Below, in pieces: positions 4,121-59,902 of a DNA stretch of 64,000 nt (positions are counted from its first letter, which is position 1; each line of letters opens with the position of its first letter). The translations under genes were made by a program, and so were the position numbers. The notes beneath the pieces were generated by a model, which did not search any database, was not told the DNA's origin, and saw only the letters and a program-made list of their open reading frames with translations. The stretch is taken from the NCBI GenBank assembly GCA_021838785.1, contig JAKCCV010000014.1, positions 1 through 64,000 of the forward strand, given 5' to 3'. Source of the DNA: Acidobacteriota bacterium (lineage in GTDB: Bacteria > Acidobacteriota > Terriglobia > UBA7540).

Positions 4121-4223
4121 TTTATACGGCGTCGCCCGAAGCCGCGATGCTCGACGGATGGTCGTGGCGCGGACTCTCGGGAAATAAAGGATGGAGAATG
4201 GTTCTTGCTCCCACGCAAGCCGG

Positions 4224-9267: not shown

Positions 9268-9343
9268 GCCGTCCGGGGGTTGAAATCAACTGGCCGCACG
9301 ATATTGACCAGAATGACTCGCCTGTGGTACACACTGGCTTCCG

Positions 9344-43138: not shown

Positions 43139-44800
43139 ATGAAGCAGGTCAAGCCGCAAGGTTCAAGTATCCAACCCGCTTCCATGCAGTGGAACCACCG
43201 CCATTCGCAACTTGACGATAAGATGATGGGCCATGAAGAAAAGCCGGCGTCGGAGGGCTCCCTCGTGCCCCGAGCGGCCGAGGGGTTGGTGCCCATCGCT
43301 TGGTTCAACCAGTCGGATCTCGCCGTGGCGTGGCTGGATAGCAAGATGGTCGTGCGCAAGGCCAGCCAAGGGCTTGCGGCCCTGTTGGCCACGAAGGTCA
43401 CCCTTCTTGAAGGGACGCCATGGACGACCTGGGTTGCGCCGCAGGACCGGGAGGCTGTTGAGGCCACCCTTGCCCAAGTCTTGGCGGATCACGGACAGTC
43501 ACGGGTTCTGGAATCCCGCTACACGGCGAAATCGGGCGACCTTCACTGGTGCTCGACATTAGCCCTGGCCGCGCGCGATGACGAAGGGCAGCCCGCCAAG
43601 GGGTTGCTTCTCATTCTCTTGGACGCCACGGGAAAGAAACAATTGGAGGAAGACTTCAAAGAGCTGGAGCAACAATTCCTCGCGGCCCAAAAGATGGGGA
43701 GCCTGGGACTGTTGGCGGGGGGCATGGCGCATGATTTCAATAATTTTCTCGAGGTCATTCTCGGCTTTGCCTCACTGGCCCGTTCGCGCGTGTCCAAAGG
43801 AAGTGAGCTTTACGAGCCTCTACAGATGATTGAGGAGTCGGCACGCCGCGCCTCCGAGTTGACGTCCCACCTTTTGAATCTGGTTCGGGAAAGCGGCGAG
43901 CCAGGCGATGCCGCTCATCCGGAAGAGGTTCTGCAAAGGGTGGTCAAGATTATTCGACGAACCTTTGACCGGAGCATCCAGATTGAAACTCGGTTGGAGC
44001 CCAAATTGCCTTGGGCACGCGGTGACGCCCGAAGTCTGGAACAAGCCGTCCTCAACCTGGCCCTCAATGCGCGAGATGCCATGCCGGAGGGCGGCATCCT
44101 GCGGATAGCGGCTGCCCGAACCACCTTGACCGGCCAGGAGATGCCACGCCGGCTCTCCCTTTCTCCCGGCGATTACGTTCGTCTGACGGTCGAGGACACC
44201 GGAACGGGAATGGGAAGCGCTGTTCTGAAGCGAATTTTTGATCCTTTGTTCACCACGAAACCCGCGGGCGAAGGGACCGGCCTGGGGCTTACCGTGGTCC
44301 AAAGAATCGTGCAGGGTTGTGGGGGCGCCATTCAGGTGGAGAGCATCCCTGGAAAGGGATCCTCATTTATCCTGTTCTTGCCCGTGGCCCCAGCGCCACA
44401 GCGTGCGGCAGCCCCGAAACGCACTGCAGCGCTGGTTCGAGGGCGCGGCACCGTGCTGGTGGTGGAGGACGAGCCCATGGTGTTGGCGTTTGTGGAAAAG
44501 GGACTCAAGCAGTTGGGCTACACGGTGCTGACGGCAACCTCGGGGAAAGAAGCGTGCGAGCTTTACGCTCGCCACGCCAATCAAATTGGCTGCGTGTTGC
44601 TGGATATGATTATGCCGGAAATGAGCGGCCTGGAAACTTATGCTCGGCTCAAAGCCATTCGACCCGACGTCAAAGTGATCATGTCTTCCGGTTATAGCCG
44701 GGAGCGCTTTCCGGAGGAGCTGGCCGAGGCTGATTTCTTGGGGAAACCCTACTCCCTTGAGGCGCTCTCCCGGGCCATTGAGAAAATACGCTCCCGATGA
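43139..44800 (+). CDS. PAS-containing hybrid histidine kinase with receiver domain
   Basis: This is a soluble sensor kinase of 553 residues with no membrane segment. A PAS-like domain (about 55-165) is followed by a helix and the phosphoacceptor H198 in GMAHDFNNFLEVILGFA. The HATPase has an N box LNLALNARDAMPEGG, G1 VEDTGTGM and G2 GEGTGLGLTVV. The C-terminal receiver (about 437-550) has its acceptor Asp489 (VLLDMIMPE) and Lys536. The AHDFNN type is common in NtrB-like and hybrid kinases. Which of several in-frame ATGs is the start is unclear, since the ribosome site at 43139 is too close. It overlaps the next gene by 4 bp. Confidence 0.92.
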   Translation: MKQVKPQGSSIQPASMQWNHRHSQLDDKMMGHEEKPASEGSLVPRAAEGLVPIAWFNQSDLAVAWLDSKMVVRKASQGLAALLATKVTLLEGTPWTTWVAPQDREAVEATLAQVLADHGQSRVLESRYTAKSGDLHWCSTLALAARDDEGQPAKGLLLILLDATGKKQLEEDFKELEQQFLAAQKMGSLGLLAGGMAHDFNNFLEVILGFASLARSRVSKGSELYEPLQMIEESARRASELTSHLLNLVRESGEPGDAAHPEEVLQRVVKIIRRTFDRSIQIETRLEPKLPWARGDARSLEQAVLNLALNARDAMPEGGILRIAAARTTLTGQEMPRRLSLSPGDYVRLTVEDTGTGMGSAVLKRIFDPLFTTKPAGEGTGLGLTVVQRIVQGCGGAIQVESIPGKGSSFILFLPVAPAPQRAAAPKRTAALVRGRGTVLVVEDEPMVLAFVEKGLKQLGYTVLTATSGKEACELYARHANQIGCVLLDMIMPEMSGLETYARLKAIRPDVKVIMSSGYSRERFPEELAEADFLGKPYSLEALSRAIEKIRSR

Positions 44801-45438
44801 AACGGGCCTCTACGACGGTTCAACCCGCCGATTTCTCGCGTCCGCTGCGGAAGGTTCTGGTGGCGGAAGATGACCCTGTCAGTCGGCGGCTGATTGAAGC
44901 GAGCCTGACACAATGGAGTTTGGAGCCGGTGGTGGCTGCGGATGGAGACGCCGCGTGGGCCATCCTTTCCAGGGCTGAGGCGCCCACGCTGGGTGTGATT
45001 GATTGGATGATGCCCGGGATTGATGGGCCGACGCTTTGCCGTCGGGCGCGTGAACGCCAGGGCACCCGCTCCGCCTACCTCATCCTGCTGACGGCGCGGG
45101 GCGGACCGGAAGATTTAGTGACCGGGCTGACCGCCGGGGCGGACGATTACATCACCAAGCCCTTCGATCGGGCGGAACTCCGGGCTCGGCTGGAGGTCGG
45201 AATCCGCGTCTTGGATTTGCAGGCTGAGTTGGCGCGTCGCATCGGCGAGCTCGAGCAAGCGTTGAAACAAGTAAAACGGTTGAAGGGTCTTCTGCCCATC
45301 TGCATGTATTGCAAAAGAATCCGAAATGACCACAACTATTGGCAACGGGTGGAATCTTATATCCGAGAGCATACTGAAGCCGATTTTACGCATGGCGTCT
45401 GCCCGGATTGCTATCAAAAGCTCGCGGAAGGCAAATAG
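44797..45438 (+). CDS. Response regulator with C-terminal zinc-ribbon-like domain
   Basis: This 213-residue protein has a complete receiver: acidic VAEDDP, phospho-acceptor Asp69 (GVIDWMMPG), Thr in LLTARG and Lys121 (YITKPFD). A coiled coil (about 138-165) leads to a small domain with CMYC (169/172) and CPDC (202/205), including KRIRNDHNYWQRVESYI. This C-terminal module recurs in bacterial receiver proteins and probably binds zinc; it is not a DNA-binding domain I know. The ATG overlaps the kinase stop (ATGA), so kinase and regulator are made together. Confidence 0.92.
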   Translation: MKRASTTVQPADFSRPLRKVLVAEDDPVSRRLIEASLTQWSLEPVVAADGDAAWAILSRAEAPTLGVIDWMMPGIDGPTLCRRARERQGTRSAYLILLTARGGPEDLVTGLTAGADDYITKPFDRAELRARLEVGIRVLDLQAELARRIGELEQALKQVKRLKGLLPICMYCKRIRNDHNYWQRVESYIREHTEADFTHGVCPDCYQKLAEGK

Positions 45439-45574
45439 GCGTGGTCGCAGGGGGCGCGGACCCCTTCCGCTGAGCGGCCTCCGACCTCGCCGCAGAATAT
45501 CCTTGGCTGCGGGCGCCATTGTGTTCCCGGTCTTTGTGCATCCGTTAGTCTTGGCGGAAAATTTAGGAGCAGCC

Positions 45575-48500
45575 ATGCCGGCCCGTCGTCAGGCCATGCC
45601 ATTCCGTATCTCTACCCTTGGCATGGTTTGTCTCTACCTCGTCTGGCCCCCCAAGGGAATGTCTCAGCTTGTCATGCTGTTGGCGTTTCTCGCCGTCGGG
45701 TTGACCCTCTGGGTCATTTATCTTCGACAGAAGGTCAGAGAGCAGCTTGCCCTGAGCCGCGAGTGGACGCGTCGAGAAGCTTCACTTAAGAAACAATACT
45801 ACGAGCTGTTTGAAAACGCCTACGACATCGTGTTTACAACCGACCTTCAGGGAAACTTTACCTCGCTCAATAAGGCCGCGGAGCGTGTCACCGGTATTGA
45901 CCGAGCTTCGGCGCTCGGACGCCCTGTTTTCGACATCATTGCGCCGGAATATCGGGAACTGGTGCAGCGAATGCGGGAAAGCAAGCTGCGGGGCGGTCCG
46001 CCCACCACCTATGAGCTGGAGATCCAATCGAACGACGGTCGTCGCATCCCGCTCGAAATTAGCAGTCGCGTGATTTATGAAGAAGGTCGGCCGATCGGCA
46101 TCCAAGGGATTGCCCGCGATATCTCGGAACGCAAGCGCGCCGAGCAGGCGTTGCGCGAGGAACGCAATCTGCTCCAGGCCTTTATGGACGCGCTGCCCGA
46201 CCACATCTACTTCAAGGATTGCGAAGGCCGATTTCTCCGCTCGAACAAAGCCCAGGCTGCGTCGTTCGGCTTAAGCGACCCCTCCCAACTGGTCGGTAAG
46301 ACCGACTTTGATTTCTTCACCCGGGAGCACGCCCGGCAGGCCTTCCAAGATGAGCAAGAGATTATTCGGACGGGCCGGCCGCTGCTGGTCAAAGTCGAAA
46401 AGACCGTTCACCCCGACGGTCGGGAGCGGTGGAAGCTGACCACCAAAATGCCGATGCGCGACGCCGCAGGTCAGATTGTGGGCACCTTTGGCATTTCGAG
46501 GGATATCACCGCGGAAAAGCAGATTGAGGAGGCCTTGCGGAAAAGCGAGGCGAGGTTTCGTCGGCTGGCGGAATCCAACATCATTGGGGTCACCATCGGC
46601 GACGAGACCGGGCGCATCGTGGAAGCCAATGACGCCTTCCTGAGCATCGTCGGTTACACTCGTCAAGACCTCGAAGCGGGCCACGTTCGCTGGGACACCA
46701 TGATGCCGCCGGACCAGAAGCACATCCTTCAGACGATGGGCGAAAGCCTGCGCACCCTCGGCGTGGTGACGCCCATTGAAACGGTTCACCTTCACAAGGC
46801 CGGCCATCGTGTCCCCGTCCTGCTCGGCTTGGCCACCATCGAGGGTCGGGAGGGCCAGGCCATCGGTTTTGTCGTGAACCTCACGGAGCGCAAGCGGATT
46901 GAGCAGGAACTCCAAAGAGCGCGTGACGCCGCGGAGACGGCCAATCGCGCCAAAAGCGAATTTCTGTCCAACATGAGCCATGAGCTTCGCACGCCGTTGA
47001 ACGGGATTATTGGCCTCACCGGCTTGGCGCTCGAAACCTCGCTCACCCAAGAACAGCGCGAATACCTCCGCCTGGTCAAATTCTCTGCGGAAAGCCTGCT
47101 TTCCGTGGTCAATGATGTTTTGGACTTTTCAAAGATCGAAGCGCGCCGCCTCGATTTGGTGGAAACCGAAACCGACTTGCGGGATCTGTTCGGAAACACC
47201 TTGCAGTCTCTGGCCTTCAGCGCCCACTCGAAAGGGCTTGAGTTGGCTTTGCGAGTGGACTGGGCGGTTCCCCAGCGCGTTTTGTGCGATGCGGACCGGT
47301 TACGCCAGGTCATCATCAACCTGGTCGGCAATGCCGTCAAGTTTACGGAGGCGGGGGAAGTGGTGCTTGCCATCGCTTCGCTTCGGCAAGGGGGCGGTCA
47401 GGCTGAACTCCGCTTTTCCGTCACGGACACGGGAATCGGCATTCCGCCCGACAAGCTCGCCGTAATCTTCGATCCGTTCGTTCAGGCCGACACCTCCGCC
47501 ACGCGCCGGCACGGCGGGGCCGGATTGGGGCTGGCCATTTCCTCGCGGATTATCGCGCGGATGGGTGGGCAAATTAAGGTTGAAAGCCAACTCGGGAAGG
47601 GAAGTCATTTTTACTTTGACCTGAAGATGCCCGTTGTGGCCGTCCCTGAAGCGGGTTCCATCACGAGCGACCTCCCATCGCTCGAGGGTGTGCGGGTCTT
47701 GATTGCGGATGATCATGCCACCTGCCGCAGCATTCTGGAAGAGGTTATCCGGCATTGGGGGATGCATCCGGTCACGGCGGCGGATGGCGCGACGGCCTGG
47801 CAGCTTTGGCAGGACGCGCAACGCGCGGGCCAGCCCTTTAAGCTCGTCATCACGGATATTCTGGTCCCACCCCAAGACGGCTTGGCGCTGGCGCGCAAGG
47901 TTTACGCAAGCGGGAAGAAGGGAGAATCCCCCGTCATCCTTCTGGTTCCTATCGGAAGGCGCAATAAGGCTTTCCGCCGGCTCAACCCGGCCGTGGCGGC
48001 GTTGCTGTGGAGGCCGACCAAGGAGGAGGAACTGCGGGCAGCCATTCGGCGCGTGCTGGGAGGGGCTGAAGCGAAGTCGTCTCGACCAGCCTCCGCAGCC
48101 CCGTCCCACCGATCTGGCCGCCCGCTTCGTATTCTGCTTGCCGAAGATAACTCGGTCAGCCGAACCTTTGCGGCGCGACTGCTTGAACGACAGGGCCATC
48201 AGGTGACGGCGGTGTCCAGCGGCCGTGAAGCTCTGCGCGCACTCGAAGATCAAGGCGAGCAAAATTTCGACGTGGTTCTGATGGACGTTCAGATGCCGGA
48301 CATGAACGGCCTTGAAGCAACCGCCGCGTTTCGGAAAAAAGCGCAAAGTTCCAAGCGGCACTTGCCGATCATTGCCTTGACGGCGGACATCCTGCCGGGT
48401 GATCCAGATCGCTTCCGGATTGCTGGAATGGACGGATACCTCTCGAAGCCTTTGGATCCAGAGAAGTTGGAGACCGCCTTGGAGTGGGTACGCGAGAAAG

Positions 48501-48889
48501 AGGAGCCGGGCGGCTTAGCCCAGGCGACGACGGCGGGTTCCGATCCGCCCTTCAATGAGGCTGAGCTATTGGCGCGTTTGGGCGGCGACAAGGAACTGCT
48601 GGCCGAACTGGCCGAAGTGTTTCTTGCCCAACTGCCGGACCACCTCAGAAACGTTCGCCGGGCGATCGAGCGGTGGGACGGTGCGGCCCTCGAGCAATCA
48701 GCGCACAAATTAAAGGGATCGCTCAGCCATTTTACAACCCGCTCGGCTTGGGTTGCGGTTGAGCGACTGGAGTTGATGGGACGGTCGGGGGATTTGGAAG
48801 GAGCACAGCAGGCGGCAAGCAACGCCGAAGAAGAACTCCATCGCCTGGCCGACCGCTTGGCGGATTTAACCCGCCCTCGAGCCCTCTAA
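45575..48889 (+). CDS. Membrane hybrid histidine kinase with three PAS, two receivers and HPt
   Basis: From ATG 45575 (AGGAG five bases upstream; the open frame before it is Arg-rich and rejected) the protein has 1,104 residues. It has one membrane helix (about 29-50) and PAS domains at about 75-185, 200-315 and 325-440. HisKA has H469 (MSHELRTPLNG) and the HATPase has N box NLVGNAVKF (about 582-590). Receiver 1 (about 706-828) has Asp761 but its conserved Lys position reads Arg813 (LLWRPTK). Receiver 2 (about 851-970) has Asp904 and Lys958. A C-terminal HPt has H1044 (AHKLKGS). It forms a complete phosphorelay in one chain. Confidence 0.93.
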   Translation: MPARRQAMPFRISTLGMVCLYLVWPPKGMSQLVMLLAFLAVGLTLWVIYLRQKVREQLALSREWTRREASLKKQYYELFENAYDIVFTTDLQGNFTSLNKAAERVTGIDRASALGRPVFDIIAPEYRELVQRMRESKLRGGPPTTYELEIQSNDGRRIPLEISSRVIYEEGRPIGIQGIARDISERKRAEQALREERNLLQAFMDALPDHIYFKDCEGRFLRSNKAQAASFGLSDPSQLVGKTDFDFFTREHARQAFQDEQEIIRTGRPLLVKVEKTVHPDGRERWKLTTKMPMRDAAGQIVGTFGISRDITAEKQIEEALRKSEARFRRLAESNIIGVTIGDETGRIVEANDAFLSIVGYTRQDLEAGHVRWDTMMPPDQKHILQTMGESLRTLGVVTPIETVHLHKAGHRVPVLLGLATIEGREGQAIGFVVNLTERKRIEQELQRARDAAETANRAKSEFLSNMSHELRTPLNGIIGLTGLALETSLTQEQREYLRLVKFSAESLLSVVNDVLDFSKIEARRLDLVETETDLRDLFGNTLQSLAFSAHSKGLELALRVDWAVPQRVLCDADRLRQVIINLVGNAVKFTEAGEVVLAIASLRQGGGQAELRFSVTDTGIGIPPDKLAVIFDPFVQADTSATRRHGGAGLGLAISSRIIARMGGQIKVESQLGKGSHFYFDLKMPVVAVPEAGSITSDLPSLEGVRVLIADDHATCRSILEEVIRHWGMHPVTAADGATAWQLWQDAQRAGQPFKLVITDILVPPQDGLALARKVYASGKKGESPVILLVPIGRRNKAFRRLNPAVAALLWRPTKEEELRAAIRRVLGGAEAKSSRPASAAPSHRSGRPLRILLAEDNSVSRTFAARLLERQGHQVTAVSSGREALRALEDQGEQNFDVVLMDVQMPDMNGLEATAAFRKKAQSSKRHLPIIALTADILPGDPDRFRIAGMDGYLSKPLDPEKLETALEWVREKEEPGGLAQATTAGSDPPFNEAELLARLGGDKELLAELAEVFLAQLPDHLRNVRRAIERWDGAALEQSAHKLKGSLSHFTTRSAWVAVERLELMGRSGDLEGAQQAASNAEEELHRLADRLADLTRPRAL

Positions 48890-48979
48890 CGGCTGAGGAT
48901 GGCGGGAGGCATTTTGCCAAGCAGCGGGAGCCGATATTTTTCCCGGAATGATGGCCCGGCGTGAGAGGGAGAAGCCCGC

Positions 48980-49891
48980 ATGAAGGTATTAGTGGCGGAA
49001 GACGATGCGGTGACGCGCCGGCTGCTGGAGGTGTCGCTCACGCGATGGAACTACGAGTCGGTCTCGACGGCTGATGGCAACGAGGCGTGGGAGATTCTCC
49101 AGCGGCCCGACGGTCCGCGCCTGGCCATCTTGGACTGGATGATGCCGGGAAAGAACGGCTTGGAGATTTGTCGCGCTCTGCGCCAGACTTCAAGCGAACG
49201 GTATATTTATGCTCTCATGCTGACGGCGCGGACCGAGCGAGCCGAGGTGCTGGAGGGGTTGGAAGCCGGGGCGAACGATTATCTGGTGAAGCCGCTCGAT
49301 CTGGCTGAGTTGCGGGCGCGGCTGCGCACCGGCCATCGCATTGTGGAGTTGCAAAGTCAACTTATCGAAGCGCGCGAGTCTCTGCGGCACGAAGCCACCC
49401 ACGACGCGCTGACCGGATTGTGGAACCGTGCGGCGCTTTTCGACATCCTTGAGCGGGAGTTGAACCGCGCTCGACGGCAAGCCCAGCCTCTGACCCTTAT
49501 CATGGCGGATTTGGACTTCTTTAAGCACATTAACGACCGGTACGGCCACTTGGCCGGCGACATCGTTTTGCGCGAGGCCGCCCTCCGCCTTCGCTCCGTT
49601 CTTCGACCGTACGATTCGGTGGGCCGTTACGGAGGCGAGGAGTTCATCGTGGTGGTGCCGGCTTGCGAGGGCTCGGGCTCGCTGGGCCTGGCGGAAAGAA
49701 TCCGCGGTGTGGTCGGTTCCACGCCGATCTCTACGCCCGACGGGGTGGTGGCGGTCACGCTCAGCGTGGGCGTCGCGGTGGCCAGGGGCGCGGAAATCCC
49801 CGCCGCGGACGCTTTGATTCGAGCCGCCGACATGGCTCTTTATCGAGCCAAGCAAGAGGGGCGAAATTGCTCGCGGATGGCGGAGAAGTGA
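48980..49891 (+). CDS. Response regulator diguanylate cyclase (REC-GGDEF)
   Basis: This 303-residue protein makes cyclic di-GMP when phosphorylated. The receiver has acidic VAEDDA, acceptor Asp52 (AILDWMMPG) and Lys104 (YLVKPLD). The GGDEF domain begins HDALTGLWNR, has metal-binding Asp in MADLDFFKHIND, active GGEEF (218-222) and an inhibitory I-site RPYD (209-212) at the usual five-residue distance. The architecture is the PleD/WspR type. It is followed 200 bp later by a collinear paralogue that has lost these residues. Confidence 0.95.
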   Translation: MKVLVAEDDAVTRRLLEVSLTRWNYESVSTADGNEAWEILQRPDGPRLAILDWMMPGKNGLEICRALRQTSSERYIYALMLTARTERAEVLEGLEAGANDYLVKPLDLAELRARLRTGHRIVELQSQLIEARESLRHEATHDALTGLWNRAALFDILERELNRARRQAQPLTLIMADLDFFKHINDRYGHLAGDIVLREAALRLRSVLRPYDSVGRYGGEEFIVVVPACEGSGSLGLAERIRGVVGSTPISTPDGVVAVTLSVGVAVARGAEIPAADALIRAADMALYRAKQEGRNCSRMAEK

Positions 49892-50091
49892 ACATCAGCC
49901 TCTTCCGCATCCCTGATGGCTCGGCAACCGAAGGCATGCTGACAGCGACAATTTATGAGATTTTTCAACCGCTTTATGAGAAACTACGGACACTGTCAAG
50001 AGGATGGCTGTCGCCGCAGAGTTGACGCGTCGCCTGGAGAGAACGGGAAAAAGGCTCGATGCTTCCTTTTGAGTCGCCGGGAGAGGGATAG

Positions 50092-51042
50092 ATGAAAATT
50101 TTGATTGCGGATGCAGACGCCACGTCACGGCAATCGCTCGAATCGTTGCTCACCCAATGGGGTTATCAGGTGATGGCGGCGACGGAAGGCCGAGAAGCTT
50201 TCCGGCAGCTCGTTCAGCCGGAGGCGCCGAAGCTCGCTATTTTGAGCGCTCATCTGACGGCGCTGGACGGAATCGAGGTTTGCCGCGAAGTGCGGAAGCG
50301 CGACGACCTTGATTACACCTACCTGATGGTGCTGCTGGGCCGCGGCGAGGACAGGACCCCACGACAAGCCGCCGAAGCCGGGGCCGATGATTACTTGCTT
50401 TCCCCAATCGTGGATGAGGAGTTGCGAGTGCGGCTGCGGGCGGCGCGACGGATTCTGGGGCTGCGTCATCAACTTCAGGAGGCCCAAGCCGCCCTCGGAT
50501 ATCAGGTTTCTCACGACCCACTGACCGGGCTGATGAACCGCGCTGCGACCTTGGATGTTTTGAGGCGTGAACTGGCACGGGTCCGGCGGGAGAAATCTCC
50601 CGTCGGGGTCATCAAGGTGGAACTGGATGATTTCCGGGCGATCAATCAAAAATACGGGAGCGCGGTGGGAGACAGCGTATTACGGGCAACCGCCCGCAAG
50701 CTGCGGGCTGCGGTACGGCCCTATGACGCCCTCGGGCGCTTTGGTGTGCAAGAATTCCTTATCGTCGCGCCGGGCAGTGATATTCGCGAGGCATTGGCCC
50801 AGGCTGAGCGCCTCCGCGTGGCCGTGGTCAGCGAAGCCGTAGAAATCAGCGAGTGGGGTCGCCATGTCCCGGAAGGTCAAGGACGACTCAACGTCACCGT
50901 GTGCTTGGGCGTGGCCGCGAGCAGTCAGGCTCCCGATCCCGACTCCTTGATTCGCGCTGCCGAAGCAGCTCTCCGGCGCGCCCGCGCCGCGGGTCCGAAC
51001 CGGGTTGAAATCGCCTCCCCGGAAGAACTGGCTGCCACGTAA
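50092..51042 (+). CDS. Degenerate REC-GGDEF paralogue, probably non-catalytic
   Basis: This 316-residue protein aligns without gaps to the preceding gene through residue 222, so the changes are unambiguous. The acceptor Asp52 is Ser (AILSAHLTA), Lys104 is Ser (YLLSPIV), an acidic-pocket Asp is Ala (IADADA), and GGEEF is GVQEF (218-222). The metal Asp of ADLDFF is changed (VELDDF). The RPYD I-site (209-212) is kept. It should neither be phosphorylated normally nor make c-di-GMP. It could bind c-di-GMP or pair with the active paralogue. A good reading frame with no stops argues against a pseudogene. Confidence 0.9.
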   Translation: MKILIADADATSRQSLESLLTQWGYQVMAATEGREAFRQLVQPEAPKLAILSAHLTALDGIEVCREVRKRDDLDYTYLMVLLGRGEDRTPRQAAEAGADDYLLSPIVDEELRVRLRAARRILGLRHQLQEAQAALGYQVSHDPLTGLMNRAATLDVLRRELARVRREKSPVGVIKVELDDFRAINQKYGSAVGDSVLRATARKLRAAVRPYDALGRFGVQEFLIVAPGSDIREALAQAERLRVAVVSEAVEISEWGRHVPEGQGRLNVTVCLGVAASSQAPDPDSLIRAAEAALRRARAAGPNRVEIASPEELAAT

Positions 51043-51177
51043 GCAGTCTCTCTCAGATTCCGAGGCCGACCCCGCCGCCCAGGGCTGCCGCTGATGGCGC
51101 TGAATCGCTCTCTTGATTCAGCGCGGCAGGCTCCTCACCCCTTGCTGACAGGCACCCAGCCTGGAAGCGCTTGGAGC

Positions 51178-51459
51178 TTACTTAAGAGCTTTGCGATTTG
51201 TTTTGGCCCAGGCGCTTTTGCTGCTGACGCCCTTCATCTCCGGCGAATGGGCGCCGCAGGCGCATTTGCCCTCTTTGGTTGCCATGGTCATGCAGGGGCA
51301 AGACTTTGTTTTCATGCAACTACACACATACACGGTCTTGTCCTTGGCGCCAGCCTTCGCAGCCGGGCGAGCGCTCAACAGTTGCGCTGCCCCCAGGGAG
51401 AACGCCAACGCCGCTCCGAGTAGAACAGCTTTGTGAATGGACTGCCACCTTTTCCTCAT
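51178..51459 (-). CDS. Exported Cys-rich small protein
   Basis: This 93-residue protein has a signal peptide (HKAVLLGAALAFSLGAAQLLSA). A short mature part contains VYVCSCMKTKSCPCMTMATKEGKCACG with six Cys in CxC and CxCG patterns, resembling a small metallothionein-like or zinc/copper-binding module. The length is ordinary for such proteins. No metal transporter or regulator is adjacent. Convergent with the 50092 gene, it stands alone. Confidence 0.75.
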   Translation of the reverse strand: MRKRWQSIHKAVLLGAALAFSLGAAQLLSARPAAKAGAKDKTVYVCSCMKTKSCPCMTMATKEGKCACGAHSPEMKGVSSKSAWAKTNRKALK

Positions 51460-51629
51460 CGTTCCTCCTCCTAGGTCTATGGTATGTAAAGAATGCTATC
51501 AGCCGGCTTGCGCCGCGTCAAGCGGAGTTTCGGGAGCGCACCCAGACGGGCCCATTGGCCCGCCGCGATGGGCCGCCGCTTGGCGGTTCGGCACGGACGG
51601 CGGTAATCTTGAGGAGATGGGAGGCAACG

Positions 51630-52340
51630 ATGAGCGAACTCAGCATTCAGACTGATCGAGTGGAGTTGAAAGTTTCTGACGGAAGCACGATGGCCGCTTA
51701 CGTAGCGCGGCCAAGCGGTGCGGCCAAGTGTCCCGGAATAATGATTTTTCAGGAAGCCTTTGGCGTGAACTCGCACATTCGTAACGTCACCGACCGTGTG
51801 GCTCGGGAGGGTTTTGTGGGCATTGCGCCGGAGCTGTTCCACCGCACCGCTCCCGGCTTCGAAGGAGACTACGCCAATTTCCAGCCCGCTATGCAACACA
51901 TTCGCGCCATGACGACGCAAGGGCTCGAAGCCGACCTCCGCGCGACCTTCGATTGGCTGGCCAACTTCCGCCAAGTCAACGCGGAGCTTATTCATGCCAT
52001 GGGCTTCTGCATGGGAGGGCGGGTCTCATTTTTAGCCAACAGCATTCTTCCTCTGAAGAGCGCCATTTCATACTACGGCGGCGGCATTGCTCCGGAGCTG
52101 TTGCCGCGCGCTTCCGCGCTTCACGCCCCCATGCTGTTTTTCTGGGGCGGCAAGGATCAGCACATCCCGCCGGCGCAGCGCCGCGCCGTGGTGGATGCGC
52201 TGTCTGCGGCCGGCAAACCGTATATCAATGTTGAATTTTCGGAGGCGGACCACGGCTTCCATTGCGACGAGCGGCCATCCTACCACGCCCGCTCCGCGCG
52301 GCTGGCTTGGGGCATGACGCTCGAGTTTGTGAGGTCGTAA
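51630..52340 (+). CDS. Dienelactone hydrolase family protein
   Basis: This alpha/beta hydrolase of about 236 residues has a catalytic Cys127 in GFCMGGR (Cys nucleophile typical of dienelactone hydrolases), Asp176 (WGGKDQHIP), His208 (EADHGFHCDE) and the Glu in IFQEAFGVN that activates the Cys. The ATG 51630 has GGGAGG upstream. Family members open lactones or act on small esters. No other aromatic-degradation genes are nearby. Confidence 0.92.
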   Translation: MSELSIQTDRVELKVSDGSTMAAYVARPSGAAKCPGIMIFQEAFGVNSHIRNVTDRVAREGFVGIAPELFHRTAPGFEGDYANFQPAMQHIRAMTTQGLEADLRATFDWLANFRQVNAELIHAMGFCMGGRVSFLANSILPLKSAISYYGGGIAPELLPRASALHAPMLFFWGGKDQHIPPAQRRAVVDALSAAGKPYINVEFSEADHGFHCDERPSYHARSARLAWGMTLEFVRS

Positions 52341-52400
52341 CGCGGTGCGTTCGGCTGGCAAGCTTGGGGTCGTTGGGACCTCGTGGGGTCGGGGGCTGGC

Positions 52401-53147
52401 TCACAGGCGGTTGATAACGCTGGCAAGATATCCCGCGCCGAAGCCGTTATCAATGTTCACCACGGCGATGTTGGAGGTGCAGCTATTGAGCATCCCCAAT
52501 AGCGCGGCAATGCCGCGAAAGCTTGCGCCGTAGCCGATGCTGGTGGGGACGGCGATGACGGGAACGGCCACCATGCCCGCCACCACGCTCGGCAACGCCC
52601 CTTCCATGCCCGCCACCACGATGACCACGCGCGCCTGGCGCAGCCGGCGGCTCTGGCTCAGGATGCGGTGAATGTTGGCGACGCCCGCGTCGTAAATCGC
52701 CTCGACGCGGTTGCCCATCACCTCCGCCGTGACCACCGCTTCTTCGGCCACGGGAATGTCGGAAGTTCCCGCGCTCACCACCACGATTTTCCCTTTACCG
52801 CGAAGCTTTTTGTCCCGCAGCAGGGCAATCGCTCCCGAAGCCGGATGAAATTGGACCGAAGGGTTAAGGCGGCGGAGCCGCTCGGCCACTTCCTGGTTGG
52901 AGCGTGTAATCAGGATGTTGTGCCGGTTGCGTAACATGCGCCGCACGATGCCCTCGATCTGTCGGGGCGTTTTGCCCCGCCCGAAGACCACTTCGGGAAA
53001 TCCCTGGCGCAGGGAACGGTGATGGTCAATGCGGGCGTAACCGATGTTTTCAAAAGGCAGGTTGCGCAGACGATCCACCGCTTCTTCGACCGGCAGTTGG
53101 CCAAGGCGAACCTTGCGTAGCATGGCCCGGATTTCTTCTGGGGTCAT
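52401..53147 (-). CDS. larB: Nickel-pincer cofactor biosynthesis protein LarB
   Basis: LarB carboxylates nicotinic acid adenine dinucleotide to P2CMN, the first step of the nickel-pincer nucleotide cofactor used by lactate racemase. The 248-residue protein has the N-terminal [24 protein letters not shown] and the AIR-carboxylase-like C part ([56 protein letters not shown]). GGAGGGA precedes ATG 53147. LarC and LarE partners are not in this window, so the pathway must be completed elsewhere or the family member has another role. Confidence 0.93.
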
Positions 53148-53290
53148 TAGGGAAATCCCTCCACTCTCGAGTCGCAGCGCTCGACCGGCGGAGTCGCTGC
53201 TCCCTGCTTAAATCATTGCGGCTTACCCACAGTATAGCAGCCTGCGCGTTCAAGAGGCTTTCTTGACTTGGCAGACGAGCGTAGCGGACA

Positions 53291-53950
53291 ATGCCTGCTA
53301 TGCGCAGAGGCGCGCCCCGCAATCTGAAAACCGTTGTTTTAGGTGTGACCGGAGCCAGCGGAGCAAGGTTTGCCCGATGCGCCTTACAGATGTTGGAGTC
53401 CGATGAGCGGGTTGGAAAGATTCACCTGGTCATTTCCGGGGCGGGGCTCAAGGTATTGCGCAGCGAACTCGATCTGACCGTCTCGCGCACCGAGACGCTG
53501 GCCACGGCGCTTGCGGCGCGGCCCGTCTCCAAAACAGAGCTTCTGCTCGATTCCGATATTGGCGCTTCCATTGCCAGCGGCTCCTACCACCATGACGGCA
53601 TGATTATCCTCCCGTGCAGCACCGGGTGCCTGGCACAGATTGCGCACGGCTTTTCACAGACCCTCATCGAGCGCGCGGCCGACGTTTGCTTGAAGGAGCG
53701 GCGCAAGCTGATTTTGGCGGTTCGCGATACGCCTTTGAGCCGCGTCCACCTGCAGAACATGCTGCTGGCACAGGAAGCGGGCGCAGAGATCTTCCCCATC
53801 ATGCCGTCGTACTACCATCAGCCGCGAACGATTGAGGATTTAGTCACGCAATTCTGCTGCCGCGTGCTGGCGCACCTTGGACTGGACCAAGCCGTCCAGT
53901 TTCGATGGGAGGGCGAAAAGCCAGCCCCAAAGACCAAAATCACCCGATGA
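53291..53950 (+). CDS. ubiX: UbiX-family flavin prenyltransferase
   Basis: This is a homo-oligomeric flavoprotein that makes prenylated FMN for UbiD-type decarboxylases. The 219-residue protein has VVLGVTGASGARFARCALQML (FMN-binding GxTGASG), the DIGASIASGSYHHDGMIILPCSTGCLAQIAHG segment and RDTPLSRVHLQNMLLAQEAGAEIFP. No UbiD is in the window. With the nearby MqnP-like prenyltransferase this fits futalosine-route menaquinone synthesis, which uses UbiX/UbiD-type decarboxylation; the link is by position only. It overlaps the next gene by 4 bp. Confidence 0.93.
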   Translation: MPAMRRGAPRNLKTVVLGVTGASGARFARCALQMLESDERVGKIHLVISGAGLKVLRSELDLTVSRTETLATALAARPVSKTELLLDSDIGASIASGSYHHDGMIILPCSTGCLAQIAHGFSQTLIERAADVCLKERRKLILAVRDTPLSRVHLQNMLLAQEAGAEIFPIMPSYYHQPRTIEDLVTQFCCRVLAHLGLDQAVQFRWEGEKPAPKTKITR

Positions 53951-54387
53951 TCATCCGAGCCGCTATCATCATGCTTTCGCTGGTCGGCTTGGGGGACGCC
54001 ATTTACTTTACCTTCGCTTATTATGGCCGGGTGCGCAAGGCGGCTTGGGTGCCGACGATTCTCTGCGCGCGGGAAGGCTCCAACTGCGTGACCGTGGTTC
54101 AGACGCCTTGGGCGCGGGTGTTCGGCGTGCCCAACTCGCTGCTCGGCATCGTCTATTATCTTACGCTGGCAGCTTGGGCGCTGATGGGCCCGCGAGTGGA
54201 CTTGCAGCTTGCGGGCGCGGTGGTTCCTCTGAGATGGTTTTTTCTGGCGGCCAGTGGGGTGACGGTTTTACTGGGTTCCTATTTGATTTATGCGCTCTTA
54301 AGGAAGCTTCACACGCACTGCCCGCTCTGCTATCTGGCGCACGGCATCAACGCCGTGTTGTTGGGGTTGTTGTTCTTGTTTCGTTGA
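53947..54387 (+). CDS. Vitamin K epoxide reductase (VKOR) family protein
   Basis: This membrane thiol oxidoreductase of about 146 residues with four helices has the redox pairs Cys40/Cys47 (LCAREGSNCVTV) and CPLC (125/128), plus VPNSLLGIVYYL. VKOR homologues regenerate disulfide-forming proteins in the periplasm by passing electrons to quinone. It overlaps ubiX by 4 bp (ATGA). The nearby menaquinone genes would supply its acceptor. Confidence 0.9.
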   Translation: MIIRAAIIMLSLVGLGDAIYFTFAYYGRVRKAAWVPTILCAREGSNCVTVVQTPWARVFGVPNSLLGIVYYLTLAAWALMGPRVDLQLAGAVVPLRWFFLAASGVTVLLGSYLIYALLRKLHTHCPLCYLAHGINAVLLGLLFLFR

Positions 54388-54514
54388 AAGTGGCGGCAAG
54401 ATTTGTCAGCCCGGCGCGTGCCGGACGATGGTCGGCCGAGTGGGGTGCGGCGGCTTATCAAGGCCGAGGAGCACGCTTTTGCGTGGCCCTCGATAGGTTG
54501 GCAGAGGAGGATGC

Positions 54515-56317
54515 GTGCTGAACAAGGCTTCATGCGGGAAAGCGCATAGGGCGGGCCGGCGAGATTTTCTCTCGACCTGCACGCGCGGAATGGCCTGGTC
54601 GGGCTTGGCGGCTCTTGGGCTTAACGGGCCAATTGAGATGGCGGTGGCCACAACGGAGCCCCGAACGGTCGGGCCCATCTCCTCAACTCGCGGTTCGGCG
54701 AACGCCGTCCCGGCAACGTCGTTGCAACTCCTCGGCCTGATGGCGGATGCCGCCCGCGTGCCGGAGGATATATCCTATTATCGTCGCTTGATAGATTTCT
54801 GCCGAGACTGGAAGCTGAACGCCCTGCTGCTCTCCCTCACGGATGACCAGGGTTGCGCGCTACGGTTTAAGAGCCACCCGGAGCTGCTCACTCATGCCCA
54901 TGCGCTCACACCGCGCGAGGCGCGGGAGTTGGCTGAATACGGCGAGCGGCGCGGCGTCGAGCTCATTCCGATTATCGAGTCCTTTGGCCACACGCGCTAC
55001 ATTACGGGGGTGCCGCGATGGGCCCACTTAGCCGACCAGCCGCCGGACGAAAAAGGACACTTTGATGGCATCATTCCGGTGTCACCGGAAACGCTGCGCC
55101 TGATGACCGATCTCTATCGCGAGACGGCTGCGATCTTCCCGTCGCGCTATCTTCACGGCGGCTGCGACGAGGTGCATTGGGGCGGATCCAAACTGTCGCA
55201 GGAGGCGCTGCGAACCCGTTCGCGAGTGGAAATCTGGGCGGATTATCTCAATTCGCTCGATCAAGTGGCGCGCGGCTTCGGAAAGGATTTTGTTGTCTGG
55301 GGCGATTACGTTTTGCACAAAGAGCCGGGCATCCTACCGCGATTGCGCAAGGACATCATCGTCATGGACTGGCAGTATTACCAGGTGGATCCGCGGCCGC
55401 TCCAGGAGGCGGCGCGGAAAGTGATGGCAACGGGACTGCGAGCGATTGGAGCGCCGGCGGTCATCTCCTGCCGGTGGGGGCCACGGCCCGGCCTGAGCGC
55501 GCTCGAAAACATCGCCGCTTATGCGGAGGCTTATCGGAGCCTCCATCACCCCGGAGCTCTGGGCGTGATTGTCACCAACTGGATTCCCTGCCGTTATCTC
55601 CAAAACTCCATTTGGGACAGCTTTGCCTACGCCGCTATCGCTCTGCGCGAAGGGGCTGCTCGGGCGCGAGCCGCGGCGTTCCCGGCATTCGTCGAAAAGC
55701 ATTACGGGGCACGTTGGAATGACCACTGGGCCGACATCTTCACCACGATTTATGAGCTGGCGCCCCCCAAGCCACCCTGCGCTCCGCCGTGGATGCAACC
55801 CACGCTGCCGATTCCCTGGCGAAACGTGGAGGAACTAAGAGCTGCGGCCAGCGCCGACCACGGCGTCGAACCCCCGTGGGGGCATTTGCTGGCACAGATC
55901 GTCATGGCAGAGGATTCGGTGCGGAAGAATTCGCGTGATTTTCGTTCTTTCCGTTTGACGGCGGAATACCTGGATTACGTGTTCTGGCGGCAAAGCGTGG
56001 TCGCCGACCTAGCTCGAAGACGCCCCGACGACGCTGCCGCGGCGCGGTTGATTCGGCTGATTGCCGAGCGCGACCGCCATCTTTTGAGTCGCCTGAGCGC
56101 CGACTGGAACGAAGGCCGGCCGCCCGACGCCGCCAGCAGGCTGAGGCCGGTGTTCGACTTCGGGCCGGGAGATCAATTGGTTTTCACGTTCAGCCAGGCC
56201 ACGGCGTTCTCGGCGCAACTTGCGAAACAGCCAGAGCAATTCACCCGCGCGCTGGTCGCCGCGCCGTCGTCCATGACGTTCGGGATGGCGCCGCGGGCGG
56301 TGGCAAATTCCGTCTGA
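54515..56317 (+). CDS. GH20-like beta-N-acetylhexosaminidase, Tat-exported
   Basis: This 600-residue protein has a twin-arginine signal (AHRAGRRDFLSTCTRGMAW). The catalytic domain has the GH20 TIM-barrel pattern (YYRRLIDFCRDWKLNALLLSLTDDQGC; IPIIESFGHTRYI) and the Asp-Glu pair of substrate-assisted catalysis in HGGCDEVHWGG (218/219). It probably removes beta-N-acetylglucosamine or galactosamine residues outside the cytoplasm; fungal or peptidoglycan glycans are possible. GTG 54515 lies 4 bases after GAGGAGG. The canonical GH20 N-terminal domain is short here. Confidence 0.85.
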   Translation: MLNKASCGKAHRAGRRDFLSTCTRGMAWSGLAALGLNGPIEMAVATTEPRTVGPISSTRGSANAVPATSLQLLGLMADAARVPEDISYYRRLIDFCRDWKLNALLLSLTDDQGCALRFKSHPELLTHAHALTPREARELAEYGERRGVELIPIIESFGHTRYITGVPRWAHLADQPPDEKGHFDGIIPVSPETLRLMTDLYRETAAIFPSRYLHGGCDEVHWGGSKLSQEALRTRSRVEIWADYLNSLDQVARGFGKDFVVWGDYVLHKEPGILPRLRKDIIVMDWQYYQVDPRPLQEAARKVMATGLRAIGAPAVISCRWGPRPGLSALENIAAYAEAYRSLHHPGALGVIVTNWIPCRYLQNSIWDSFAYAAIALREGAARARAAAFPAFVEKHYGARWNDHWADIFTTIYELAPPKPPCAPPWMQPTLPIPWRNVEELRAAASADHGVEPPWGHLLAQIVMAEDSVRKNSRDFRSFRLTAEYLDYVFWRQSVVADLARRRPDDAAAARLIRLIAERDRHLLSRLSADWNEGRPPDAASRLRPVFDFGPGDQLVFTFSQATAFSAQLAKQPEQFTRALVAAPSSMTFGMAPRAVANSV

Positions 56318-56337
56318 AGGAAAGGGCTCAACAAGCG

Positions 56338-57252
56338 ATGGAAGAAATCTTCTCAAATCCCAAACCGATGCCCGAGCCGAGAGGGTCTCTTGCTGCTTTG
56401 GGTCATAAAATCCGGGTGACGCTCGAGATGATAAAGTTCGAGCACTCGATTTTCGCTCTGCCGTTCGCATTGGTGGGCGCAATGCTGGCGGTTCATGGTT
56501 GGCCCACGTGGAGTCAGATTTTCTGGCTGATAGTCGCTATGGTCGCGGCGCGAAGCGCAGCCATGACGTTCAATCGCATCGTTGATCGTGACATGGATTC
56601 GCTCAACCCGCGCACGCGGATGAGAGCCTTGCCCGCCGGCCGGCTGAGCGTGCAATTCGCCGTGGCGTTTACCGTGGTTTCCTGCGCTGTCCTGGTCCTT
56701 TCGGCGTGGGAGCTGAATCCATTGGCGTTCAAATTATCTCCGGTGGCCTTGGCGATTTTGCTGCTCTATTCCTATGCCAAGCGTTTCACGTTGTTCACCC
56801 ACCTCATACTCGGCTTTGCCGACGGACTGTCCCCCGTGGCTGCCTGGATTGCGATGCGGGGCGACGTTAGCTGGAGCGCCATCTTGCTCGGGGCAGCGGT
56901 GGCGCTGTGGGTGACGGGTTTTGACCTGATTTATGCTTGCCAGGATGTGGAGTTTGACCGGTCTCACGGCATCTATTCGGTTCCGAGCCGCTTTGGGGTG
57001 GCCACGGCGCTCTACCTGTCCCTCTTCTTTCACTCGGGGATGTTGGTGCTGCTCGCGGAAGTGGCCCGTCGAGAGCACCTGGGAGTTTTTGCCTGGGTTG
57101 GTCTTGCCCTGGTGGGAATGCTCTTGGCTTACGAACATTGGCTCGTGCGACCCAAGGACCTTTCTCGCCTCAACGCGGCGTTTTTCACCGTCAACGGCTA
57201 CATCAGCATCCTTTTCTTCATTACCTGGGCCGCCGACCTGTGGGTCCATTGA
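56338..57252 (+). CDS. mqnP: UbiA-family prenyltransferase, MqnP-like
   Basis: This polytopic membrane protein of 304 residues attaches a polyprenyl chain to an aromatic quinone precursor. The two Asp-rich motifs are NRIVDRDMDSLNPRTRMRALP and DLIYACQDVEFDRSHGIYSVP. The N terminus (IKFEHSIFALPFALVGAMLA) and the ending are typical of the 4-hydroxybenzoate/1,4-dihydroxy-6-naphthoate subgroup. UbiX 3 kb upstream supports a menaquinone role. The symbol reflects subgroup resemblance, not proof. Confidence 0.85.
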   Translation: MEEIFSNPKPMPEPRGSLAALGHKIRVTLEMIKFEHSIFALPFALVGAMLAVHGWPTWSQIFWLIVAMVAARSAAMTFNRIVDRDMDSLNPRTRMRALPAGRLSVQFAVAFTVVSCAVLVLSAWELNPLAFKLSPVALAILLLYSYAKRFTLFTHLILGFADGLSPVAAWIAMRGDVSWSAILLGAAVALWVTGFDLIYACQDVEFDRSHGIYSVPSRFGVATALYLSLFFHSGMLVLLAEVARREHLGVFAWVGLALVGMLLAYEHWLVRPKDLSRLNAAFFTVNGYISILFFITWAADLWVH

Positions 57253-57313
57253 GTTTTCGGGCTGCGGACGATTGGCCAGACCGACAGCCGAACCGACGGA
57301 GCCCGCAATCTGC

Positions 57314-57580
57314 TTATTGGATTCGGTGAGGGGACTCGATTTCGCGGAAAACCAGGGAGTCAAAGATGGCCAGGACGTGCTTGCGGTAATTCAGCATGCG
57401 CTCGACCATGGGCTTTGACCACGGCTCGCGCAACGCCAGTTGTTGCCAGCGATGAAGAATGTGCGGAGGCACGTCAATATCGGCTCGAAGCTTCTCGAGC
57501 GGCTGGCCGCGTAGAAAGAGACCGTAAAAGAAGGCGGCTTCCTGTTGCGGTTCGGCGAGCGCGTTGTCGTAAATTTCCAT
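57314..57580 (-). CDS. Conserved small protein, likely helical
   Basis: This 88-residue protein has EAAFFYGLFLRGQPLEKLRADIDVPPHILHRWQQLA, a helix-turn-helix-like region, and ERMLNYRKHVLAIFDSLV. The pattern recurs, as I recall, in short acidobacterial proteins of unknown function. It could bind nucleic acid. It is monocistronic, between mqnP-like and GH42 genes. Confidence 0.65.
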   Translation of the reverse strand: MEIYDNALAEPQQEAAFFYGLFLRGQPLEKLRADIDVPPHILHRWQQLALREPWSKPMVERMLNYRKHVLAIFDSLVFREIESPHRIQ

Positions 57581-57679
57581 GCCCGTTCAACTTCCTCAAA
57601 AGCTCATTCTAATGCGAATTTCGCCCTCCGGCAAAACGTCCTTGCCGCCCCCCTGCGGCTAAAGCCCCATCTTACACCA

Positions 57680-57742
57680 ATTGTCAAGCCCCGCAGGCTG
57701 GTTGTCTTGGTGTTGACACGGGGCGCTTCCGGGGTTGACAAT
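57680..57742. promoter_or_regulatory. Inverted repeat upstream of the GH42 gene, possible operator
   Basis: ATTGTCAAGCCCC (57680-57692) and GGGGTTGACAAT (57731-57742) are inverted arms with one extra base. TTGACA occurs at 57713-57718 and again within the right arm (57735-57740), so the repeat could overlap a promoter for the gene starting at 57797. No clear -10 was identified. Confidence 0.35.
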
Positions 57743-57796
57743 CTGGAGCGCGTCAGCATCCGCTGAAGCGCAGTCATCACTTCCAGGAGGTCAACC

Positions 57797-59902
57797 ATGA
57801 GAGCTTGGAGGAAGACATGGGTCGCGGTCGTAAGCGTTTTCATTCTGGCGTCCCCTCTGCTCGGCGGGCCGCAGTCCTCTTCGCCCCGACCGTTCAACTT
57901 GATTCGATGGAATCACGGCAAATTCATTTTCGGCGTGGATTACTATCCCGAGGCCTGGCCGGAAAGCCAGTGGGAAAAAGATGCGGAGATGATGCAAGCC
58001 GCGGGCATCAATTTTGTCCGCATGGGGGAGTTTGACTGGGTGAAGATGGAGCCGGAGGAAGGTCACTTTGATTTCTCGTGGCTCGATCGCGCGTTAAAGA
58101 TTCTGAGCGCACACGGCATCCATGCCGTCCTGGGAACGCCAACCGCGGCCCCGCCCGCTTGGCTGTATGCCGAATATCCCGATATTGCCGCCGTGAATGC
58201 CGAGGGCATCCGCTATCGTTTCGGCTCGCGCCGAAATTATTGCCTCAACAACCCGCATTTCCTCCAAGCGACGCGGCAGATCGTCACGGCGCTGGCCGAG
58301 CATTACAAAAACAACCCCGCCGTCATCGGCTTCCAAATTGACAACGAACTGGGCAATCCGTACTGCTTTAACCGTTACTGCCTGGCCGCTTTCCAAAACT
58401 GGTGCCGCAACAAATATAAAACGCTTGATGCGCTCAACCGGGCCTGGGGAACCGTGTTCTGGGGGCAGACCTACACGGCATGGTCCCAAATTCCTCTGCC
58501 CTGGAACACGCTTTTTGGCGTCCACAATCCGAGCTTGGCGCTCGATTATGATCGCTTCTTCAATGATTCGACGAAAAGTTATTTGGAACTTCAGGCCAGG
58601 ATTTTGCGGCGCATTGCTCCGAACAAGGCCATCACGACCAACGAGATGGGGTTGTTCGACGCCATTGACTACTCGAAGCTCAACACGGCCCTCGATTTTG
58701 TCGCTTGGGACAATTACCCGATGTTCGACCAGAATCACTCCAACTACTTTGGGCCGGCGCTCGCCCACGATCTGATGCGAGGGTCGAAGAACAATCAGAA
58801 CTTTATGGTCATGGAAGAAGAGGCCGGCTTGCCCGGCTGGACGATGTTTTGGGGGCATCAGGCACCGGCGGCACTCTATCGCGTGTGGGCTTATCAGGCG
58901 GTAGCCCATGGCGCCGACGGGGTTTGTTTCTTCCGCTGGCGCACTTCCACTTACGGGACCGAGCAGTATTGGCAGGGCGTTCTTGATCAGGATAGCTATC
59001 CAAACGCGCGTTATCGCATCATCGCCCGCATGGGAAAGGAGATTCAGCGGCTGACGCCGGTTCTGGAAGGCTCGCACGTCGTTTCAAAGGTCGCCCTGTT
59101 GGTTTCCCCGGATAGCCGATGGGCGTTTCACATTCAACCGCTGACGAAAGGCTTCAATTACAACCGCCAGCTCTACCGTTACTACGACGCCTTTCGCCGT
59201 CGGGCCGTCAATGTGGATGTGGTGTTCCCGCAAGACAACTTTTCCGCCTACAAGGTCTTGGTAGCTCCTTCGCTTTTCGTGGTGAATGCGGAGCTGGTCC
59301 GCAAGCTGACGCAATTTGTCCGTGGCGGGGGCCTCCTGATCCTGACCTATCGTTCCGGCGTCAAGGACTCGCATAACGTTTATACCACGCTGACGCTGCC
59401 CGGCCGCCTGGCCCCGCTGGTCGGCATTGCCATTCACAATTACGATCCTGAAACCACCCAGCAACAGAAAATTGTCATGAGCAACGGCACCAGCTATCCG
59501 GCGGACGTCTGGTTTGACATCTTAACCCCGACAAGCGCGCGCGTGCTGGCAACTTACGGGGAGGATTTTTACGCCGGCAAGCCAGCGGTTACGATCAACC
59601 GCTATGGCCGCGGGGCGGTCATCTATGTGGGCACGGAGCCACGGTCGAGCAGATTCTACAGCGGGCTCGTCCAACTCGTCGCGCGGCGAACCGGATTGGC
59701 GCTCGGTCCCAAGCTGCCGAACGGGGTTGAAATGGCGACACGGCAAAAAGCCGGTGAGAAAATCATCTTCCTTCTCAACTACACGAGTCAGCCCCAGTCG
59801 GTGGACGTAGGTGCGGTCACTCGTAATGCGTTGACGGGTCAAGCTGAGAACGAAAGCGTCCCGATTCCTCCTTACGATGTTCGAGTGCTGACTCGGCGTT
59901 GA
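57797..59902 (+). CDS. Exported GH42 beta-galactosidase
   Basis: It hydrolyses terminal beta-galactosides. The 701-residue protein has a signal peptide (WVAVVSVFILASPLLGG), the GH42 barrel (FGVDYYPEAWPESQWEKDAEMM; VLGTPTAAPPAWLYAEYPDI), catalytic acid/base Glu184 in FQIDNELGN and nucleophile near Glu340 (FMVMEEEAG), a beta-galactosidase trimerisation domain (KVALLVSPDSRWAF; VLVAPSLFVV) and a C-terminal domain (FLLNYTSQPQSVDVG). AGGAGG precedes ATG 57797. With the GH20-like enzyme it suggests use of plant or microbial glycans. Confidence 0.94.
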   Translation: MRAWRKTWVAVVSVFILASPLLGGPQSSSPRPFNLIRWNHGKFIFGVDYYPEAWPESQWEKDAEMMQAAGINFVRMGEFDWVKMEPEEGHFDFSWLDRALKILSAHGIHAVLGTPTAAPPAWLYAEYPDIAAVNAEGIRYRFGSRRNYCLNNPHFLQATRQIVTALAEHYKNNPAVIGFQIDNELGNPYCFNRYCLAAFQNWCRNKYKTLDALNRAWGTVFWGQTYTAWSQIPLPWNTLFGVHNPSLALDYDRFFNDSTKSYLELQARILRRIAPNKAITTNEMGLFDAIDYSKLNTALDFVAWDNYPMFDQNHSNYFGPALAHDLMRGSKNNQNFMVMEEEAGLPGWTMFWGHQAPAALYRVWAYQAVAHGADGVCFFRWRTSTYGTEQYWQGVLDQDSYPNARYRIIARMGKEIQRLTPVLEGSHVVSKVALLVSPDSRWAFHIQPLTKGFNYNRQLYRYYDAFRRRAVNVDVVFPQDNFSAYKVLVAPSLFVVNAELVRKLTQFVRGGGLLILTYRSGVKDSHNVYTTLTLPGRLAPLVGIAIHNYDPETTQQQKIVMSNGTSYPADVWFDILTPTSARVLATYGEDFYAGKPAVTINRYGRGAVIYVGTEPRSSRFYSGLVQLVARRTGLALGPKLPNGVEMATRQKAGEKIIFLLNYTSQPQSVDVGAVTRNALTGQAENESVPIPPYDVRVLTRR

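Follow-up and report, generated by a model that had tools for sequence, protein, structure and literature searches.

Why would a bacterium carry, immediately behind a gene for a diguanylate cyclase, a second gene of the same build in which active-site and phospho-acceptor residues have changed? The question is raised by an Acidobacteriota contig, JAKCCV010000014.1, of which positions 1 to 64,000 were analysed; this whole stretch of 64,000 nucleotides is referred to as the window, and features lie on its + strand unless stated otherwise. The ORF list, Pfam and an alignment place a 303-aa REC-GGDEF diguanylate cyclase (DGC) at 48980..49891, whose receiver and cyclase residues look intact at the sequence level. 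It is followed at 50092..51042 by an intact ORF for a 316-aa protein which, from this ORF and the clade trees described below, we call a pseudo-REC/pseudo-GGDEF protein (PSD).

Three signalling genes precede the cyclase: a PAS histidine kinase with a receiver (43139..44800) and a response regulator with a Cys-rich C-terminus (44797..45438), both from the ORF list and Pfam, and a hybrid histidine kinase with PAS, HisKA, HATPase, two receivers and Hpt (45500..48889; Pfam), the start of which is inferred in a frame open from 45326. The C-terminal segment of the response regulator, of the form CxxC...CxxC, has the appearance of a metal-binding output, and a homologue occupies the same place in many relatives. 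Directly after the PSD gene, on the opposite strand, lies a small Cys-rich ORF of 93 aa (51178-51459, - strand) that is possibly exported and is also found in genome G002.

Sequence and predicted structure of PSD

The ORF has exactly the coordinates and strand originally predicted, and the predicted collinearity with the 48980 protein also holds: this is the closest PSD paralogue in the genome, and the two align end to end, with 42% identity over residues 1-309 (E 3e-69). Pfam recognises both domains above cut-off, a Response_reg domain at residues 3-115 (50098..50436; also seen in the alignment) and a GGDEF domain at residues 140-304 (50509..51003), the latter scoring 106.7 bits against PF00990 (cut-off 23.8).

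Within these domains the functional residues have diverged. A phosphorylatable receiver carries an Asp acceptor, a T/S and a Lys; the aligned residues of PSD are Ser52 (codon 50245-50247), Leu (T82L) and Ser104. An active diguanylate cyclase has D327 (PleD numbering) and GG(D/E)EF intact; PSD has Glu177 in place of the metal Asp (D177E; 50620..50622) and, in translation and alignment, GVQEF in place of GGEEF at residues 218-222 (50743..50757). Further losses are D8A, K182R and the equivalents of K442 and R446. The claim that every catalytic or acceptor residue had changed is thus accurate for D52S, K104S and GGEEF to GVQEF, but too strong as worded, because D9, N185 (PleD N335), D194 (PleD D344) and E221, the second Glu of the motif, are retained. 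Nor are the changes due to chance, since the two proteins can be aligned along their whole length and relatives show these changes again.

The PleD-type inhibitory site is kept. It comprises Arg163, equivalent to PleD R313 in the alignment (50578..50580), the RxxD motif RPYD at residues 209-212 (50716..50727), whose retention had been read correctly, and Arg240, the equivalent of PleD R390 (50809..50811). PSD therefore shows the pattern that defines a degenerate receptor, a lost catalytic site with a kept inhibitory site. It also carries a clade-specific insert of nine residues, WGRHVPEGQ (residues 255-263; 50854..50880), which falls in a gap of the PleD alignment.

An AlphaFold2 model of PSD built from 26 rows has a mean pLDDT of 94.6; in the block where the insert starts, a low-confidence loop, the average falls to 62. 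The best Foldseek matches of the model are WspR, PleD and DgcR. VIA-align also ranks PleD best (Z 27.7), with an rmsd of 13.0 over 303 residues; as several single GGDEF domains fit the model at 1.4-2 A, the high value probably reflects a different domain arrangement in the model.

Phylogeny and residue conservation

Relatives were searched in 61 genomes and then, with a clade profile, in 39 genomes of the acidobacterial family. In this family the profile gave 12 top matches, spread over 11 genomes and all scoring 421 bits or more, and the next match scored at most 381 bits. Surveys of the class (399 genomes) and the phylum (396 genomes), scoring the best 5 candidates per genome, found no further match of at least 421 bits outside the family. 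The best matches there among these candidates, at 370-389 bits in the class survey, are six genes at five loci in four other families; they were considered as clade members and set aside as intact-looking cyclases. The clade is thus restricted to one acidobacterial family among the genomes searched. Viral contigs yielded no more than remote receiver or GGDEF fragments, which served to add depth to the structure model. One cluster (L164, genome G085), from a different family of the class, holds two intact-looking REC-GGDEF cyclases, at 4111-4998 and 8487-9374.

In a tree of 41 rows, which has no outgroup root, the clade forms one side of a branch separating 12 from 29 rows with support 100/98. 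Clustering by convergent shared losses was rejected as an explanation: the same split is recovered (97/86) when the catalytic, inhibitory-site and insert columns are removed. Inside the cyclase clade, separate losses of the GGDEF motif (GGGQF, SGGQF, ESEKF) are seen at L058, L068, L071 and L062, where the receiver is intact and RxYD retained.

Residues were counted in PleD numbering over 12 clade rows, which probably represent 11 genes because one gene appears split across two contig ends, and over 31 cyclase rows. The four inhibitory-site residues were matched to PleD through the alignment; the other catalytic positions, located with the help of a constant offset or a motif, are those we take to be K332, N335, E370, K442, R446 and so on. 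Asp at D327 occurs in none of the 12 clade rows (nine have Glu) and in 31/31 cyclase rows; R446 is found in 0/10 against 25/29, and E370 is Glu in 6/11 clade rows. Losses in the receiver are less complete, with D52 kept in 4/11 clade rows, the T/S in 2/12 and K104 in 5/12, against 29/29, 30/30 and 30/30 in cyclases, respectively. By contrast, R313 is invariant (12/12), as are R359, D362 and R390 (11/11 each). R390 is present in 22/29 cyclases, and the Pro of RPYD, found in 11/11 clade rows, in only 4/31. The guanine-contact positions N335 (11/12) and D344 (11/11) are conserved too. The insert, which follows residue 254, bears a W-G-[KR] motif (Trp 10/11, Gly 11/11) and is filled by no cyclase row.

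Two motifs singled out by the original prediction fared differently. RPYD is present in all 11 clade rows that cover it. GVQEF, whose conservation among relatives was to be checked, is not conserved and was discarded as a clade motif: the genus has G[VAT]QEF, with GVQEF itself only in the window protein and its G002 copy, and elsewhere in the clade the position reads GGEEF, GGEEY, TGEEF, ASEEF, DTDQF, GGEAF or GGGVF, three members still having GGEEF or GGEEY.

Among positions at least 90% conserved in cyclases, the clade retains 48/84 overall and 27/43 in the GGDEF domain; by category, 3/3 qualifying inhibitory-site, 3/8 catalytic and 0/4 receiver phosphorylation positions are retained, a contrast that goes the way a receptor would predict. 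Against the background of 27/43, three out of three would arise by chance about one time in four, so the inhibitory-site count is not by itself significant, and no significance was drawn from that conservation alone. Stronger points in the alignment are R390 and the Pro of RPYD, which vary less within the clade than among the cyclases, together with the conserved insert that is new to the clade. Losses across the family are graded, from nearly intact to fully degenerate proteins, with the inhibitory site fixed throughout.

Selection and gene integrity

A protein that has lost so many functional residues might be the product of a decaying pseudogene. No in-frame stop was reported in the 12 clade hits, in line with the expectation of intact frames in relatives. 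Nei-Gojobori dN/dS for the whole PSD gene is about 0.1 (0.110, 0.102 and 0.148 for three genus pairs), as expected of purifying selection. Within the genus the GGDEF part gives 0.063-0.095 and the receiver, which evolves faster, 0.15-0.31, the one observation that favours decay. For the cyclase, comparison of the window with G001 gives 0.079 and with G002 0.176. These ratios are rough because dS is near saturation, at 1.3-1.6 for whole-gene PSD pairs and 2.3 for the cyclase pair with G001. The PSD gene shows neither frame decay nor relaxed selection; it is maintained under strong purifying selection and is not decaying. With open frames throughout the clade genes, this selection, and invariant sites and insert, the pseudogene reading was ruled out, and we regard it as extremely improbable.

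The PSD gene of G002 is identical in DNA to that of the window. Between the window and the G002 locus L047 not one of 8210 bases differs from 49791 up to where the comparison stops (49791-58000), but before 49791 they diverge by several percent. The sharp switch, which lies inside the cyclase gene, suggests recent recombination or a mixed assembly.

Gene context

The order kinase, regulator, hybrid kinase and cyclase recurs within the family. The PSD gene directly follows the cyclase in G000, G001, G002 and G010, and a contig of G003 starts in the C-terminus of a cyclase and runs into the PSD gene; the cyclase adjoins it in all four genus genomes and in G010. In G014 the PSD gene directly follows the hybrid kinase, and in G020 a kinase, with no cyclase between; in G006 and G011 the two genes lie on different contigs.

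In the gap between the cyclase and PSD genes, tandem TTTATGAGA-type boxes (49952..49985) are kept in three species of the genus. The two boxes, spaced 20 bases, lie 5' of the PSD gene, with matching pairs in G001 and G003 and weaker pairs in G010, G011 and G006; they are possibly the promoter of the PSD gene or a site for a regulator. For one of the boxes, a 15-base pattern was no rarer in the window than in shuffles, and a scan of 48800-51700 for sigma-70 promoters and terminators returned none on the coding strand. A structured RNA or riboswitch in the gap was also considered and dropped, with no Rfam match within the window; the 9 sources gave a single Rfam match, to a cobalamin riboswitch lying at the edge of L051.

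Downstream of the PSD gene, nitrogen genes recur. The genes amt, glnK (P-II) and glnD lie 3' of it in G003, G006, G011 (contig C288), G014, G020 and G022; Pfam supports Amt, P-II and GlnD in G006, G011 and G014, Amt and GlnD in G020 and G022, and Amt in G003, the remaining assignments coming from tblastn. The set lies 0.4-2.8 kb downstream in six of the nine clade genes that have at least 1.5 kb assembled on that side. The other three are those of G000 and its near-copy G002 and the second copy in G011. The window genome's own set is on contig C24, separate from the PSD gene; the link to nitrogen genes is therefore a family trait lost in the window's lineage. Family cyclases are followed by at least one of amt, glnK and glnD at seven loci (L055, L056, L058, L068, L069, L071 and L118), six of which have at least 1.5 kb downstream, while most cyclase loci examined are not followed by these genes.

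Discussion

In this study we asked what a degenerate copy of a response-regulator diguanylate cyclase does beside its intact-looking paralogue. PSD is an ancient, maintained pseudoenzyme derived from a REC-GGDEF diguanylate cyclase, probably acting as a c-di-GMP receptor through its kept inhibitory site with an output to a partner. Most likely it has lost the ability to make c-di-GMP and, in this genus, to accept phosphate. In PleD and DgcR, dimeric c-di-GMP forms a crosslink between subunits, joining the RxxD of one to an Arg on its partner (PMC7288161, PMC8041772). In PSD, dimeric c-di-GMP would most likely bind R209xxD212 and R240 together with R163 of the second subunit; once bound it would either lock the dimer or uncover a surface, for instance the loop of the W-G-[KR] insert, and PSD would thereby relay the c-di-GMP level to a partner. 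One natural source of ligand would be the 48980 cyclase next to it. As PSD has all four PleD residues but neither an active site that looks functional nor a phospho-acceptor, a ligand-gated, c-di-GMP-reading dimer is the simplest reading. Anatomy, clade, purifying selection, residue conservation and synteny are results of the analysis, and the loss of catalysis, ligand binding, the partner and the pathway are inferred. The receptor idea put forward in the original prediction thus gains support from the alignment, in which every residue of the PleD-type inhibitory site is invariant but catalytic and receiver positions have drifted. On the other side, RxxD could be retained for structural reasons, the guanine contacts are mostly kept as well, and the window genome has its amt operon on another contig.

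The prediction had also offered PSD as a dominant partner of the adjacent enzyme, its REC and GGDEF surfaces pairing with those of the cyclase so that the dead subunit lowers or gates activity. The two proteins are collinear paralogues, their genes adjoin in all four genus genomes and in G010, and the E. coli degenerate GGDEF protein CdgI forms heteromers with other GGDEF domains through strong contacts (PMC5635695). Like PSD, CdgI is catalytically degenerate beside active cyclases in one cell, but it has a different N-terminal domain and is not a response regulator paired with a paralogue. Such pairing may occur; as the main or general role it is unlikely, because G014 and G020 have no cyclase next to the PSD gene and no close cyclase paralogue at E 1e-40 (other GGDEF proteins exist in both), and the separate contigs of G006 and G011 also count against it. 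If instead the degenerate site still bound GTP or another guanine nucleotide, as is described for the GTP-sensing degenerate GGDEF domain of Caulobacter CC3396 (PMC7288161), PSD would be a nucleotide sensor. The conserved guanine contacts agree with this, but PSD differs at both metal ligands, D327 and E370, as well as at K442 and R446, R446 being lost in every clade row covering it, and we consider such a role improbable. That PSD still works as a diguanylate cyclase, with weak or altered activity, is very improbable in our view: an enzyme with AGDEF is reported to be active (PMC3974145), CbrR with SAEKI has low activity in E. coli (PMC8779298) and three clade members still have GGEEF or GGEEY, but several catalytic positions have changed together and the metal Asp is lost throughout the clade.

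For the receptor reading, the amt-glnK-glnD genes that recur nearby suggest that PSD has its output in ammonium or PII signalling. Such an output is plausible because the PII protein GlnZ of Azospirillum binds a putative cyclase and a phosphodiesterase (PMC7646526), and because solved chains named 'Ammonium transporter' (8qj3, 8qpf) match the GGDEF profile. These are direct PII or Amt links to GGDEF proteins, although the GlnZ partners are a putative cyclase and phosphodiesterase and 8qj3/8qpf a fusion, whereas PSD is a separate pseudoenzyme. More specifically, and only as a doubtful proposal, PSD might be a dedicated adaptor from c-di-GMP to Amt-GlnK-GlnD, its W-G-[KR] loop contacting GlnK, GlnD or the tail of Amt once the inhibitory site is occupied by c-di-GMP. 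A search of the literature, with subscription papers largely outside its coverage, returned no report of a degenerate GGDEF protein linked to amt-glnK-glnD.

Among known systems, PleD, WspR and DgcR share the fold and domain order of PSD, and PleD its inhibitory-site residues, but they are active enzymes with phospho-acceptor and GGEEF intact. PopA of Caulobacter, with a receiver part and a degenerate GGDEF domain that keeps the inhibitory site, is a c-di-GMP receptor and not an enzyme, as PSD may be from its sequence. PopA has two receivers where Pfam finds a single one in PSD, and we know of no tie of PopA to amt-glnK-glnD. CbrR, and PopA as mentioned in the same paper (PMC8779298), set a precedent for degenerate response-regulator GGDEF proteins that serve as receptors. 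CbrR of Campylobacter jejuni, also a response-regulator GGDEF protein with a divergent active site, is described there as binding c-di-GMP in experiments, the binding being lost on a change in the inhibitory site; it differs from PSD in having two receivers, KGRD instead of RPYD, a motility context and low residual activity. PSD may work like PopA and CbrR but, having one receiver, is not filed among them; judging from sequence and gene order, it is probably a c-di-GMP receptor of their type, possibly tied to nitrogen status.

Degenerate GGDEF receptors are already known; this acidobacterial family allows the enzyme to be set directly against its pseudoenzyme in one genome after another, and the graded losses with a fixed inhibitory site make the order of events from enzyme to receptor testable. 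The repeated position before amt-glnK-glnD points to a candidate link between c-di-GMP and nitrogen sensing in acidobacteria.
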